A DNA stretch of 64,000 nucleotides. It comes from Streptomyces bauhiniae (GTDB lineage Bacteria > Actinomycetota > Actinomycetes > Streptomycetales > Streptomycetaceae). Within the stretch, counting starts at the first letter, position 1. Each line of letters begins with the position of its first letter. A program made the position numbers and the translations under genes. Shown here in pieces: positions 43,114 through 48,468 of the stretch. The stretch is taken from positions 1,054,001-1,118,000 of the forward strand of contig NZ_SRRT01000001.1 of the NCBI RefSeq assembly GCF_004784475.1. Reading direction: 5' to 3'. The notes below the pieces were generated by a model that was given only the letters and a program-made list of their open reading frames with translations, had not been told where the DNA came from and did not search any database.

Positions 43114-43192
43114 GGACGGGACCGTAGCAGCGGGGTAGGTTTCGGTACTCCCGGCTCGGCGAGAACGCGTTGGGTCCCCTGCGGGATTCAGG

Positions 43193-43211
43193 CCTGCGAC
43201 ACCCGCTTTAG
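43193..43211. repeat. left tRNA-Arg-derived repeat of the second island
   Basis: 19 bp (CCTGCGACACCCGCTTTAG) identical to 47739-47757, where the same bases are the T-arm to anticodon part of a tRNA-Arg(CCT) on the minus strand. Flanking bases (AACGCGTTG on one side) are also similar. A second shared 16-mer, CGAGGCCGATCAGGAG, is at 43240-43255 and 47661-47676. Confidence 0.65.
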
Positions 43212-43248: not shown

Positions 43249-43653
43249 TCAGGAGTTCAGACTCTTGCGACGCACGCGCATGTAGGTTCCTGATGTGGTA
43301 CTTCCGCCCCACCCGCCAGTCGTGGCGATGTCCCATCCTTGCTGGGCGCGCATCTGCTTGGCGAACGCGTCTAGGTCATTGATGGCGCACCCGCAGTCCA
43401 GATGGACGCGGACAGTGATGTAGCTGCCCATCGGCTTCTTCTCACTGGGGTCCAGCGTCCAGCGGACGGCGTGCTCGTGGTCGGCGAGTCCCGTGCGCTC
43501 CTGGTCGTGAAGGAGTCCGTGCGCCCGGGCGTACTCGTCGAGGGCGTCGATGACGAACAGGTCGCTTCGCCAGGAGCCCGGCCATACGGCGAACAGGCGG
43601 GACTCCTTGTCGCGAGCCCGCTCGTAAGTGCCGTCATCAACGCCGTGGGACAC
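43249..43653 (-). CDS. hypothetical protein of the second island
   Basis: A 134-residue soluble protein beginning MSHGVDDGTYERARD, with SDLFVIDALDEYARAHGL in the middle and a C-terminal part rich in Gly and Thr (GGWGGSTTSGTYMRV). No known domain. GTG start with AAGGACGG upstream. It lies next to the left repeat. Confidence 0.55.
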   Translation of the reverse strand: MSHGVDDGTYERARDKESRLFAVWPGSWRSDLFVIDALDEYARAHGLLHDQERTGLADHEHAVRWTLDPSEKKPMGSYITVRVHLDCGCAINDLDAFAKQMRAQQGWDIATTGGWGGSTTSGTYMRVRRKSLNS

Positions 43654-44079: not shown

Positions 44080-44883
44080 TTGTTCGGAAGGGTTTCCCCT
44101 TACCTGTGGCGGTATCGCGTGGGTTCGCTGGTGCCGCTTCTGAGACCTGATGTGAGACAGGAAATGATTCATTCGTTCATCGCGCACACGAGTCCGGGGC
44201 GGAGCAGAGTATTCGCCATTGCCAAAGGCCCTCGCGACGAGTTGGAGGCGGTCACCACACTGGGAGCGGGAGATCTCCATCTGACCGGGGAACTCGTCGA
44301 TGCACTCAACTGCTTCCTGGCTGACCGAGACGAGGCTTCTCTCGGAGTGGTGCTGGATCGAGTCCCGAAGCCGGTGCGTATGGCCGCGCAGCAATATCTA
44401 AAGAACAAGTGCACACCAATGCTGGGAGCTTTCACTAGCTTTGGGCCGATTGACCTGGTGCGCCCCGCCGTCTATTTCGGTGATATCGATGGCGAACTCG
44501 AGGAGTACCTTGAGGGCGCTTACATGATCGGGCTCGGCATTCGCATGTCGAACGAGCGCGGCAGCGATGGAGATGTCGACTGGGTTGTGCAACTGCTCAG
44601 CGACGAGGTCTCCGTGCCTGCCAGCGCCGAGCCGCGTACATGGGCGCTCCCTGTGGAAGCGAAGCTCTTGCAAACCTGGACGAGTAAGCAACTGACTGGC
44701 GGTATCGGCCCCGTTCGTAGCGCGCTCAATGTGGCGGAAGATGCGAGTGCCGAGGGGCATTGGGTAAGGATTCATACGTTGCTTCACAGTGACCGTGATG
44801 TGGACTTCGAGGGCAACGGGTCCTCGGAGTTCGTCGTCGACGTCTTCGGTGCGCCCATCCCACTACAGCACTTGGACGAGTAG
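44080..44883 (+). CDS. hypothetical protein, lower-GC cargo gene
   Basis: A protein of up to 267 residues with no family I recognise. It is soluble, with an acidic centre (FGDIDGELEEYLEGAYMIG) and a plausible beta-rich C-terminus (SSEFVVDVFGAPI). Codon use is much less GC-biased than in the backbone, consistent with transfer. The start is uncertain: TTG 44080 gives the full frame, but ATG 44164, after a GACAGGA site, would give about 239 residues. Confidence 0.6.
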   Translation: MFGRVSPYLWRYRVGSLVPLLRPDVRQEMIHSFIAHTSPGRSRVFAIAKGPRDELEAVTTLGAGDLHLTGELVDALNCFLADRDEASLGVVLDRVPKPVRMAAQQYLKNKCTPMLGAFTSFGPIDLVRPAVYFGDIDGELEEYLEGAYMIGLGIRMSNERGSDGDVDWVVQLLSDEVSVPASAEPRTWALPVEAKLLQTWTSKQLTGGIGPVRSALNVAEDASAEGHWVRIHTLLHSDRDVDFEGNGSSEFVVDVFGAPIPLQHLDE

Positions 44884-45100
44884 GCCGGCCGTGCTGCCGC
44901 AGTTCAGCGAGCAGGTCCTGCGGGCTGCCACCGGGCGGCGACTGCGCATAGTGCACGAGGTTGGCCTCCATCGAGGTCAGTAGTCGGTGAGGGTAGTGCT
45001 CCAGTCCATGGGCGCGCCGAGTTGGGGCGCCCATGGACTGCCTTGTGGTTCGCGCACGGCCACGCTGAGCCATCCGGCTGAAGGTCTCCTGGGGGCTTGG

Positions 45101-47146
45101 TCACCCGTCAGTTCGGACGAAGCGGCAGAAATGCGCCTCAAGTCTCAGAGAGGCGGATTCCTTGGACTGCTTACCTCCGACCTTCAAAGCTCGCACAGTG
45201 GCTGAGTTGGCGTCGGGCAGGTTGGTCCAGTACACCCCGTCGCGATGCAGTTCAACGATGGTGTTGGCGCCGCGTGCGATAGGCGTCGGGACATGTCGAA
45301 GTTCGAGCGGCTCGTCAGGCCCTTCGCTCAACGCACGAGCTGTGATCAGAACCGCGAGGTTGTATTCCTCCGCAATGCGGCGTGCGACGTCCATGCTCAA
45401 TGCCAGACCCTCCTCGTCCAGCTCGCTGTAGCTCTGGATCGTGTCGACCACCCACAGGGCAAGGCGACCGCGCTGCGGTGGCATGACCGTAGTTGCGGCT
45501 TCCCGGAACACCTGTTCAAGCGGGAGCCCGATGGTCGGGGTGTGCCAGCCTGGCACTCTGACTGAGGAACTTGATGCGTGGCGACGCACGGAGTCGAAGT
45601 CCACCGTATCTGCGGGGTATCGCAGATCTGCTCCGCGGGCGGCGGTGACGAGCTTCCGCTCGATCGCCTCGGAGTTGATCTCGCAGGTGCTGAAGACTGT
45701 GAGTCGATCGGCTGTGGCATTGTGCAGCGCGATGTTCAGCGCCATTGTCGAACGGCCGGCAGTCGGCACGGACACGATCGCAGTGACCGTCCCAGGCTCC
45801 AGTTTCAGGAAGTCGTTGACGTCCGGCCACGGAGTGGCACCAGGAATCTTGCCGAGGTCGATCCAGGTGCCTTCCTCATCAGTGCCAGGCACCGGCTGCG
45901 GTACTTCATCGGGTTCCTCGTTCTCTGTGCCCTCGGCGGCGTTTTCAGCGGGCCATGCGTGCAAGGGGATCTGCGCGGCGTGGGATGCCACCTGCATCAT
46001 GTCCGGCTGCCACATCACCTTGCTGAAAAACGTCTCCCCCATGGCCGAGAGAGGGAGATTCCATGGCCTCCCGAAGGACTTGACGTCCCAGCCGTTGGCG
46101 CGGGCCCTGTCGGCGCTGGCGCTGATCCGTCCGATGGTGCTGTTGGCGGCTTGCCGCTTGTTCACTCCGCCACGCTGGTAGTAGGCGGCGGAGTCCTTGG
46201 CCGCCCGATAGATGAAGTTGAAGACCTGCCCCAGGCTGAAGGTGCTCAGGGCGTCCTGGAGGGCGGTGCGGGTCCCCTCGCCCTGGTTCATTTCAAGATG
46301 GTGCTCACCGAGCTTCATCGCGAGGTAGTCCTGTGCGTCCACCAGCACCAACTCGTCCCATAGGTCGCGCCACTGGCCCGCCCAGGCGGTGGGCCACGGG
46401 CCTTCCCGGAAGGTGCGATTCAGAGCCTGGAGGAGGCGGGGGTGCCGATCAGTGAGCTTGTCGGCCTGGCCCATGAGGTAATAGCTGACGCGGCCGAGGT
46501 AGAAGGAATCGCTGAGTTCCCCGTTGTCGTCCAGGGCGAAGGCGTCGAGGTGCGAGTCCGGATGCACTTTGATCAGGCGCGTCGCAGCCTTCAGGAGCCC
46601 ACGCTCGAAGTCGTACCGAAGCTGCTCGGGAGCCCAGCGGCGCTCCTTGGGCCAGATGTTGGTGGGAGACGTCAGCCCGGCGTCTTCAACTGCCGGGTCG
46701 CTTAAGAGGGCATGCAGCGCGATGGCCTCGAGAAGCGTGAGGTCGGCGGGCTTCAAGTCAGGACCGTTGAGGACGGGGTACTTCTCGTAGACCTCGGCCC
46801 GGCGCCGCGCCTTCTGTTCCTTGACCCGCGCGGCCTGCTCTTCCACTTCCCGTTCGTGGCAGCTCGGGCACTTCCAGCTTTCGAAACGGAGGGCTTGAGC
46901 GAGGTCACTGCGGCTGGACACGGGGTAGGGGTCCTCGCAGGACTTGCACAACAGGTCGGCCAGGTAGGCCGTGCCGGCCTGCTGGGCGATGCGGGTCATC
47001 TGCTGCGGCTTCAGCCCGTACTCCGCGCGGATGGCGGTGACGGTCTGGGCCCACGTCTCACCGTCTTGGTTGAGTCGCCAGTACGCCTCGAAGGCGGCTG
47101 CCTCGGGCGCATCGTTCGTGAGCACCTTGAGTTCGAGCTGAGCCAC
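45101..47146 (-). CDS. DnaB-like RecA-fold ATPase with zinc motif and altered P-loop
   Basis: A 681-residue protein. The N-terminal domain has two CxxC pairs (Cys67/Cys70, Cys93/Cys96), a probable zinc ribbon. A helical middle follows. Residues 430-681 resemble the DnaB/RecA-like core: the P-loop position reads VPTAGRSTMALNIAL (about 460-474), with Arg where Walker A has Lys, and Walker B is LALWVVDTIQSYS. FSTCEINSEAI and VLITARALSEG also match DnaB-type motifs. It may be a replicative-helicase-like element protein with weakened ATPase, or a sensor. GTG 47146 follows AGGGGGGA. Confidence 0.75.
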   Translation of the reverse strand: MAQLELKVLTNDAPEAAAFEAYWRLNQDGETWAQTVTAIRAEYGLKPQQMTRIAQQAGTAYLADLLCKSCEDPYPVSSRSDLAQALRFESWKCPSCHEREVEEQAARVKEQKARRRAEVYEKYPVLNGPDLKPADLTLLEAIALHALLSDPAVEDAGLTSPTNIWPKERRWAPEQLRYDFERGLLKAATRLIKVHPDSHLDAFALDDNGELSDSFYLGRVSYYLMGQADKLTDRHPRLLQALNRTFREGPWPTAWAGQWRDLWDELVLVDAQDYLAMKLGEHHLEMNQGEGTRTALQDALSTFSLGQVFNFIYRAAKDSAAYYQRGGVNKRQAANSTIGRISASADRARANGWDVKSFGRPWNLPLSAMGETFFSKVMWQPDMMQVASHAAQIPLHAWPAENAAEGTENEEPDEVPQPVPGTDEEGTWIDLGKIPGATPWPDVNDFLKLEPGTVTAIVSVPTAGRSTMALNIALHNATADRLTVFSTCEINSEAIERKLVTAARGADLRYPADTVDFDSVRRHASSSSVRVPGWHTPTIGLPLEQVFREAATTVMPPQRGRLALWVVDTIQSYSELDEEGLALSMDVARRIAEEYNLAVLITARALSEGPDEPLELRHVPTPIARGANTIVELHRDGVYWTNLPDANSATVRALKVGGKQSKESASLRLEAHFCRFVRTDG

Positions 47147-47280
47147 GTTCCCCCCTAGGTATTGTCGTCAGGTGCCAATTATTCCGAGTTTGCGGACTCG
47201 GGAGGGGCGTTTTAGCTGCGCTGACCTGCTCTGAAGAACGATGCTCCGTCTTCCGCCGCCGCGAAAAGGCGTTGTTGCGG

Positions 47281-47640
47281 CTACGGGGGCCGCGTCTTCG
47301 CCAAGAAGAGTGGTGAGATGCTCCGCCCCGCCAACGTCACGCGGCGGTTCATGGAGCTGTAGGAGGAGATCGATCTCCTGCCGGTCCGGCTCCAGGCCTC
47401 CGTGATGAAGCTGCGATCGTCGCCTGCGCAGCTGGGGCCGACCTGAAGGACGTCCAGGAGATGCTCGGCCACTCCTCGATCACCATCACGGCCGACACGC
47501 ACACAAGCCTGCTCCCCGAAGCGGAGGCCGAGCCCGCCGACGCGAAGCATCCCGGCCCGGAGTCCGTGCCGGATGATGCTGATCCGGTGGGATGCCATTC
47601 GGAGATTAACTCGCCGTCCGCTCGCGCACCGCTCACGTAA
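47281..47640 (+). pseudogene. C-terminal remnant of a tyrosine integrase
   Basis: GRVFAKKSGEMLRPANVTRR runs into an in-frame TAG after FMEL (where a Tyr codon is expected), then EEIDLLPVRL. In another frame the C-terminal catalytic part follows: ADLKDVQEMLGHSSITITAD. The nucleophile position, TYTSLLPE in relatives, reads THTSLLPE, so Tyr is replaced by His. The HxLRH block is missing. It points towards the tRNA-derived repeat at 47.7 kb, as an integrase normally does. Confidence 0.7.
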
Positions 47641-47719
47641 ACGGCCCCGGACGGGACGTCCGAGGCCGATCAGGAGCCTCCTTGGGGAAGAAGGCCCAGG
47701 TCAGAGCGGTAACGCGTTG

Positions 47720-47777
47720 TGGCCCGGCAGGATTCGAACCTGCGACACCCGCTTTAGGAGAGCGGGGCTCTATCCCC
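47720..47777 (-). other. tRNA-Arg(CCT) 3' fragment, attachment-site remnant
   Basis: On the minus strand: D-arm remnant GGGGATAGAGC, anticodon stem-loop CCGCT-CTCCTAA-AGCGG (anticodon CCT), T-arm GCAGG-TTCGAAT-CCTGC and part of the acceptor (CGGGCCA). The 5' acceptor strand and left D-arm are absent, replaced by the end of the GDPD gene, so this is not a functional tRNA. Integrases often use the 3' half of tRNA genes. Confidence 0.75.
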
Positions 47778-48468
47778 GCTGCTTTCGCAGGGCGGTCAGG
47801 GTGTCGATTCTGTTCGTTGTGATCGAGTCCGCGCCCAGGGTCAGCAGCTTGCGCATGGAGTGGGTCGTGTCTGGGGTCCAGACTGAGAGGAGGTAGCCCT
47901 CTTTGTGGACTCGGTGGGACAGGTCTCGGTCGACCAGGGAGAAGCGGTAGTTGAGGTAGTGGGGGCGTAGGGCTGTTAGGAGGGCGGGGCGGGGGCGGGC
48001 CTTGGAGGTCCAGGTGAGGGCCAGTTCGGCGGCGGGGGCGGCTGCGCGGAGGGTTAGGAGGGATTGGGGGCCTGAGGAGTAGTAGACGCGGTCTTCTGCG
48101 CCCGCCTGGCGGACTGTGTCGAGGACTCGGTCCGCCGCCCGGGGGGTTACTCCGCCGCACAGGTCCGCCATGATTCGCGTGCCCTCTGTTGCCGACAGGG
48201 CTTCCGCCAAGGTCGGGATGCCGCCTGCCGTCAGTTCTGTTACCTGGGAGGCCGTCAGCGTGGACAGGGGGCGGTCGACCTCCCACAGGCGCTTCAGGGT
48301 GTCGTCGTGCAGGAGGACGGGGACGCCGTCGCGGGTGAGGCGTACGTCGATCTCGACCGCGTCCGCGCCCCGGTCGAGCGCGGAGCGCAGGGAGGCGAGG
48401 GTGTTCTCGCGGAAGCGGTAGGGGTCGCCCCGGTGTGCGACGGCGGTCCAGGTCTGCATGGTCGTCAT
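47770..48468 (-). CDS. glycerophosphodiester phosphodiesterase
   Basis: A 232-residue GDPD-family enzyme releasing glycerol-3-phosphate from glycerophosphodiesters. Catalytic and metal residues are in AHRGDPYRFRENTLAS, DAVEIDVRLTRDGVPVLLHDDTL. No signal peptide, so cytoplasmic. Its last codons (KQRG-stop) lie in the tRNA fragment, so the gene end was probably shaped by the integration event. ATG 48468 or 48459 may be the start. Confidence 0.88.
   Translation of the reverse strand: MTTMQTWTAVAHRGDPYRFRENTLASLRSALDRGADAVEIDVRLTRDGVPVLLHDDTLKRLWEVDRPLSTLTASQVTELTAGGIPTLAEALSATEGTRIMADLCGGVTPRAADRVLDTVRQAGAEDRVYYSSGPQSLLTLRAAAPAAELALTWTSKARPRPALLTALRPHYLNYRFSLVDRDLSHRVHKEGYLLSVWTPDTTHSMRKLLTLGADSITTNRIDTLTALRKQRG

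Follow-up and report, generated by a model that had tools for sequence, protein, structure and literature searches.

Why would an intact gene encode a DnaB-like ATPase that has an arginine in place of the Walker A lysine, and why is this ATPase fused to an N-terminal part with a zinc site? The question is raised by gene A, located at positions 45101–47146 on the reverse strand of the window, i.e. the whole 64,000-nucleotide stretch of Streptomyces bauhiniae DNA analysed here. Gene A is one uninterrupted reading frame of 681 codons that begins with GTG, and upstream of it is a ribosome-binding site that reads AGGGGGG (47150–47156, reverse strand). Open reading frames, alignments and dN/dS ratios describe its 681-amino-acid product as a fusion of an undescribed domain with HTH-like, zinc-site and winged-helix-like parts to a DnaB-like RecA core with an arginine P-loop. 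Our literature search found no description of a protein like this one, although absence of reports is no proof.

The P-loop arginine and selection on the fused gene

The DnaB-like RecA core (residues 430–681; 45104–45859, reverse strand) was assigned by profile searches and profile–profile comparison. The gene A product itself scores 12.1 bits against Pfam DnaB_C, below the cut-off of 27, and matches the PHROG DnaB-like helicase with an E-value of 7e-4. Its standalone plasmid relatives L038 and L039 exceed the DnaB_C cut-off (38.4 and 39.5 bits), the member on pSAM1 reaches 27.9 bits as a frame-wide score only, and a profile–profile comparison of the family with DnaB gives a probability of 99.2% (E = 1.2e-19; 226 columns). 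Judged by these comparisons, kinship with DnaB is weak from the gene A product alone but firm through its relatives. Like the DnaB replicative helicases, gene A encodes a RecA core with the catalytic glutamate and the Walker B aspartate. It differs from them in the arginine at the Walker position, in an unrecognisable finger motif, in an H3 glutamine that is mostly lost across the family, and in that no model of the DnaB N-terminal domain was found among the Pfam matches of the product at E-values up to 1.

The family stands apart in profile searches, where its members score about 300–400 bits and no other DnaB-like sequence exceeds about 78 bits. When matches of at least about 300 bits are counted, the overlapping genome samples yield 8 of 392 at genus level, 3 of 394 at family level and, at class level, 1 of 394, which is gene A's own genome. 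All members found are from Streptomyces. This genome holds gene A in one copy, together with a distant DnaB-like gene with a normal lysine P-loop (L031, E = 9e-4). Hence, gene A is not the sole DnaB-type gene of its genome, and L031 is presumably the replicative helicase.

A sequence-only reading of this DNA had pointed to a Walker A motif PTAGRST with arginine for lysine. Core alignment and codon reading confirm this: the motif covers residues 461–467 (45746–45766, reverse strand; wider context VPTAGRSTMA), and Arg465, encoded by CGT at 45752–45754 (reverse strand), occupies the position of the DnaB Walker lysine. The same reading had called for an alignment of homologues, and held that lysine in most of them would indicate a single-strain mutation in a dying gene. 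We aligned 72 distinct cores, comprising 17 family members (8 fused and 9 without a shown N-module fusion) and 55 background DnaB-like sequences. At the Walker position, the family has arginine in 16 members and lysine in one (G037, locus L010), whereas the background has lysine in 52 sequences and arginine, threonine and serine in one each. A single-strain mutation is therefore rejected. A single sequencing error is also an unlikely source, since it takes three base changes to get from CGT to AAA or AAG; the arginine codon in 13 other members that were read is CGC in 11, CGG in one and CGT in one. Seven other arginine members are only 32–39% identical to the gene A core, so the change is old and has been kept. 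The other fused cores are much closer relatives (85–91% identity for five, 92% for L043), and the eight fused genes therefore weigh as about one event. In a quick tree from which the Walker-Lys, H3 and finger columns had been removed, a branch with SH-aLRT 97 separates the family from the rest, and the lysine-type member L010 splits off first with support 92, on a long branch that leaves the order unsure.

The RecA core and Walker B had also been described as well formed, which holds for part of the catalytic residues. Glu489, in the place of the DnaB catalytic glutamate (45680–45682), and Asp568, the Walker B aspartate (45443–45445; both reverse strand), are kept in all 17 members of the core alignment, compared with 51 and 55 of the 55 background sequences, respectively. 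The description does not hold for the H3 glutamine and the arginine finger. Gene A has Arg604 (45335–45337, reverse strand) where DnaB has the H3 glutamine, a column that reads Q in 5, R in 10, C in one and H in one of the family members but Q in 49 of the 55 background sequences. The finger column contains G in 10 members, a gap in 4, and H, N and R in one each, the arginine belonging to the Walker-Arg member L038, versus R in 48, G in one and a gap in 6 of the background. The KHR.G-type finger motif (the KHRNGP stretch in DnaB) was recognised in 0 of 17 members and in 48 of 55 background sequences. The gene A product has a glycine at the finger column and no arginine within four columns, but the loop aligns with many gaps, and in 6 of the 17 members some arginine is no more than four columns away from the finger position; a shifted finger may therefore exist. 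Because the lysine-type member L010 also lacks the motif, with a glycine at the finger column and an arginine further on, the losses of the lysine and of the finger motif are not tied together. The predicted fold of the core is poor (pLDDT 50), too poor for a structure search.

The sequence-only reading had expected the change to cripple ATP hydrolysis. This is probable by analogy with RAD51, taken together with the absent finger motif. RAD51 K133R is described as binding but not hydrolysing ATP and as forming hyperstable filaments (PMC10681713), and a table in a review lists deficient hydrolysis and reduced DNA affinity for the Walker Lys-to-Arg change of RAD51 (PMC10137073). Gene A likewise has lysine replaced by arginine in the Walker A motif of a RecA-fold protein, but K133R is an engineered mutant and a distant proxy, whereas gene A belongs to an evolved family. 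By this analogy, the gene A product would bind ATP without hydrolysing it.

Selection was assessed with the eight fused genes (gene A itself, L043, L053–L057 and L170), all of which are free of stop codons. The dS exceeded 0.1 in 24 of the 28 pairs, and in these dN/dS was 0.13–0.30 for the whole gene and 0.09–0.33 for the C-terminal core. The other four pairs differ too little for a judgement, and one of them gives 1.41 for the core at a dS of 0.005. Gene A is under purifying selection in both halves and is functional rather than dying. With eight intact orthologues under such selection, the dying-gene alternative fails and a pseudogene is ruled out.

An N-terminal module of its own family

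The N-terminal module (residues 1–405; 45932–47146, reverse strand) was delimited by genome scan, alignment and a predicted fold with a pLDDT of 89, and its family occurs standalone elsewhere. It had been taken for a zinc ribbon. Four cysteines (C67, C70, C93 and C96; 46859–46948, reverse strand) that probably bind zinc are indeed invariant in 30 of 30 aligned relatives, but they do not form a small appended ribbon; they are part of a family of about 400 residues. The genome scan found 38 loci of this family. Eight are from Streptomyces, five of these with the fused core, and the other thirty are from Anaerolineae, gammaproteobacteria, Bacillota, Brachyspira and Bacteroidota, groups that were partly assigned from record titles. 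No convincing match to the module was found in Pfam or PHROGs, in PADLOC (gene A product) or in NCBIfam (gene A product and five relatives). The weak Pfam and PHROGs matches concern single members only and are mutually discordant.

Structure prediction of the zinc-bearing part, as had been suggested, gave a confident model (pLDDT 89.2, pTM 0.74) with HTH-like and winged-helix-like parts. Its order is an HTH-like pair of short helices, the zinc site, a long helix, a winged-helix-like part and a helical bundle. The predicted helices 36–43 and 47–56 (residues 36–56; 46979–47041, reverse strand) may correspond to an HTH. The winged-helix-like part (residues 132–250; 46397–46753, reverse strand) is named after weak VIA matches to MarR-type proteins with Z up to 5.0, and the bundle reached a best Z of 5.9; these values are low, and VIA grades the best of them as middling. 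Foldseek searches against the PDB and viral models gave no match with an E-value of 0.001 or less. As the best VIA score is middling, we claim no known fold as present or absent. TPR-like stretches were seen ahead of the module in two relatives. The predicted model suggests that the module probably binds DNA, and its family is an undescribed, widespread one of probable DNA-binding proteins.

RadA/Sms proteins have a zinc site before their RecA core. Gene A resembles them in having its zinc site ahead of the RecA core, but its 400-residue module is of a different make. A RadA/Sms identity is rejected, since NCBIfam gave the gene A product no RadA/Sms match and only PRK05973 and RadB, both far below the cut-off.

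Genomic setting of the fusion and of its halves

Gene A lies in a 4.5-kb island with genes B and C, between partial copies of tRNA-Arg(CCU) and beside a broken integrase. The att-like copies, recognised by repeat and tRNA comparison, measure 55 nt with 98% identity (47723–47777) and 36 nt with 86% identity (43176–43211; both reverse strand), while an intact tRNA-Arg(CCU) is found elsewhere in the same genome. The remnant of a tyrosine integrase, recognised by eye at about 47281–47530 (forward strand), has broken frames. Fuller relatives of it are present at L170:11922-12305 and L057:12882-13691, and L057 retains a Phage_integrase gene (E = 3.3e-25). From the tRNA pieces and the integrase remains and relatives, gene A is cargo of a site-specific element that is apparently immobile here. 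Together with the relatives of each half on phage-plasmids, these features bear out the mobile-element setting that had been supposed. In a tRNA scan of the eight fused loci, L053 and L054 had tRNA-Arg(CCU) in intact form upstream of gene A; in L170 the scan gave just one call, tRNA-Phe(aaa) of 64 nt close to gene C, and in the other five it gave none. No partition or transfer gene was recognised in the island.

Between genes A and B lies a palindrome with 17-nt arms of 94% identity (45002–45040), probably a terminator. Gene B (44164–44883, forward strand) is of unknown function, and no family match was found for it. It is next to gene A in six of the eight fused loci (not in L043 and L056). 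Gene B is also present in five further Streptomyces genomes in which no gene A was detected, which rules it out as an obligate partner of gene A; a sixth match is short. A relative with 40% identity is located on a Rhodococcus plasmid. Gene C (134 aa, also of unknown function; 43249–43653, reverse strand) is present at full length with A and B in five of the eight fused loci and is cut in L054. Neighbouring genes at the relatives' loci, including the DRT loci below, were called with a GC3 heuristic, and their starts and small genes may be wrong.

Apart from each other, both halves occur on plasmids and phage-plasmids, and each has relatives on phage-plasmids of Streptomyces. The next three plasmids all have genes of phage type. 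An arginine-type core is found on pSAM1 alongside bet, ParAB, dCTP deaminase, thyX and an amidase. The N-module is found on NBC_01590 unnamed2 with terminase and capsid genes, and on Rossellomorea p6 with terminase, portal and capsid genes; on p6, ParA adjoins it in the opposite direction and the sole annotated 'replication protein' sits among tail genes. None of eight N-module plasmids searched has a family-type core; an ordinary DnaB is present on the Virgibacillus plasmid among them. None of three core plasmids searched has an N-module. Scans of viral contigs gave no relative with three N-module alignments and only pSAM1 with the core, and tblastn against phage records gave nothing for the gene A product or the p6 N-module protein, so that the phage link rests solely on annotated plasmids. 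The neighbourhoods of standalone arginine-type cores vary between loci. Those at L039, L048, L049 and L050 are near a helicase-associated-domain protein (L039) or its relatives; L039 and L048 lie within 8 kb of a record or contig end. The mycobacteriophage proteins D29 Gp65 and Wildcat Gp80 are DnaB-related RecA-core proteins; Gp80 is reported to be a helicase and to have an N-terminal domain, Gp65 to be a nuclease consisting of the core only (PMC4523182). By this description, they are phage-borne and DnaB-related like the arginine-type cores.

The arrangement on p6 recalls RepA/parABS phage-plasmids, in which repA lies opposite parABS (PMC7157519). Unlike RepA, the N-module matches no known Rep, and on two Psychrobacter plasmids it coexists with an annotated Rep. 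On these plasmids, pA22P5 and pP62BP1, a replication initiator and parA are annotated in addition to the N-module relative, which matches 31% and 52% of the p6 protein with E-values of 1e-7 and 2e-9. At both loci (L175 and L176), the relative and a small HTH gene are divergent, and rep, parA and parG follow across the start of the record; the plasmids also have restriction and RT genes. A ParA match near the N-module gene was found in 3 of 44 loci (BLAST with four ParA queries), and 10 of 11 N-module plasmids have no MOB-suite replicon type, the exception being L092. No iterons were found at 44900–47850 of the window or at L053:7200-10450, and an iteron initiator at the gene A locus is rejected. 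Among eight N-module plasmid loci, only L040 has a many-copy repeat array. The repeats of this array, on a Halopseudomonas plasmid (L040:7450-9260), are imperfect, 25 nt long and of the form AATTAT...TCTCCC; next to the array are a KfrA-type gene and a truncated N-module.

A survey of neighbours for defence genes had also been proposed. Two of the eight fused loci have the DRT genes RT_UG23 and RTasNUDIX (E = 2e-196 and 6e-110) immediately upstream of gene A. These DRT genes form a two-gene unit of low GC3 in two species (L043:12484-14754 and L057:5186-7456). Ten large ORFs neighbouring N-module genes were checked singly: six match restriction or methylase models and four match nothing. The matches, in four loci, are type I and IIG restriction genes (L063, L067 and L077) and a mads-2-like methylase (L070). 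Other plasmid copies have BREX, Drt2, restriction genes and Abi proteins nearby; several N-module plasmid loci have no defence gene by annotation, and PADLOC gave 0 families for genes A, B and C at E-values up to 1. Defence genes thus do lie near several relatives, but these are raw associations, and we claim no enrichment.

Candidate roles of the gene A product

The reading that we tentatively favour, while giving it less than even chances, is that gene A encodes a DNA-tethered DnaB paralogue which binds but barely hydrolyses ATP, and which controls or blocks the replication of mobile DNA. The N-terminal HTH/zinc/winged-helix-like module would probably serve as the DNA tether. The core would probably bind ATP through its remaining P-loop, catalytic glutamate and Walker B aspartate, with poor turnover because the Walker lysine is an arginine and the finger motif and the H3 glutamine are gone. 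Held at its target on plasmid or phage DNA, such a protein could act as an ATP-gated scaffold or roadblock, and might engage, cap or exclude a working helicase and so set or block the replication of related mobile DNA. The sequence changes, their conservation, the selection on both halves and the island setting are consistent with a tethered pseudo-helicase; replication of mobile DNA as its target is our guess from the DnaB kinship and the plasmid and phage-plasmid setting. The separate occurrence of the halves and the lysine-type DnaB-like gene in the same genome also favour this reading. Weighing against it are the poor core fold, the gappy finger loop, the five members that retain the H3 glutamine, the absence of iterons around gene A, the varied neighbours of standalone cores and the failure to find the N-module in viral contigs or phage records. 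The sequence-only proposal of an ATP-sensing or dominant-interfering helicase homologue, which might meddle with phage or element replication, is thus plausible but just partly supported. In a more pointed and rather doubtful version, the fusion would be a natural interference device with halves taken from phage-plasmids, whose sequence-specific module would bring a DnaB paralogue that does not hydrolyse ATP to plasmid or phage-plasmid DNA entering the cell, where this paralogue would poison or block helicase loading.

Alternatively, the protein might be a replication initiator or helicase recruiter that serves its own plasmid or integrative element instead of opposing others. The divergent ParA on p6, where the annotated replication protein lies among tail genes, and the tRNA att pieces and integrase remains of the island would fit this role, as would, weakly, the missing MOB-suite types, given that the Psychrobacter pair is untyped despite its annotated initiator. 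Yet, this pair has a separate Rep, iterons are absent near gene A, and ParA is rare, which make a plain initiator less likely; the lack of a recognised partition or transfer gene in the island and of any Rep family among the Pfam, PHROGs and NCBIfam matches (the last with five N-module relatives included) also speaks against it. We consider this role doubtful, though worth weighing. The same holds for a role in defence or exclusion, in which the protein would detect foreign replication and halt it; this is suggested by the DRT genes upstream of gene A and by the restriction, mads-2-like methylase, BREX, RT and Abi genes near N-modules. However, association by itself shows no function, no PADLOC model matches, and the four unmatched large neighbours and the plasmid loci without annotated defence genes weaken the case.

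It is unlikely that the protein is a regulator or bridges DNA, with a DnaB core that oligomerises in its ATP-bound state and has no contact with replication. The HTH-like, zinc and weakly MarR-like parts and the lost catalytic residues agree with such a role, and nothing specific speaks against it, but a DnaB core would be an arbitrary choice. An ATPase still active with arginine in place of lysine seems very improbable: the glutamate and aspartate are kept throughout the family and some members have an arginine near the finger position, but the finger motif is absent from all 17 and the same substitution stops hydrolysis in RAD51. The truncated integrase and att pieces around gene A might suggest a degenerate relic in a dying gene. 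This is hardly tenable, being already contradicted by the eight intact orthologues, the purifying selection on both halves and the arginine conserved in divergent relatives.

A DnaB-family clade that has arginine for lysine, lacks a recognisable finger motif and is under selection offers a natural separation-of-function experiment on ring ATPases. With the fusion to a widespread family of probable DNA-binding proteins, the tethered DnaB paralogue becomes a directed, testable hypothesis on the control of phage-plasmid replication.

Altered P-loops were also observed in DnaB-like ORFs outside the family. Tandem DnaB-like ORFs with one degenerate copy occur in Actinobacteria (L143:1465-3682, L131:1-3468 and L136:1-3431); the P-loop of the degenerate copy reads PSAGTSA in L143, and the middle ORF of L131 and L136 has a histidine for the catalytic glutamate. 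Two short ORFs of 314 and 317 residues, L012 (G292) and L135 (G730), have the P-loops PAVGRTT and PGVGSST, yet keep the KHR finger motif.
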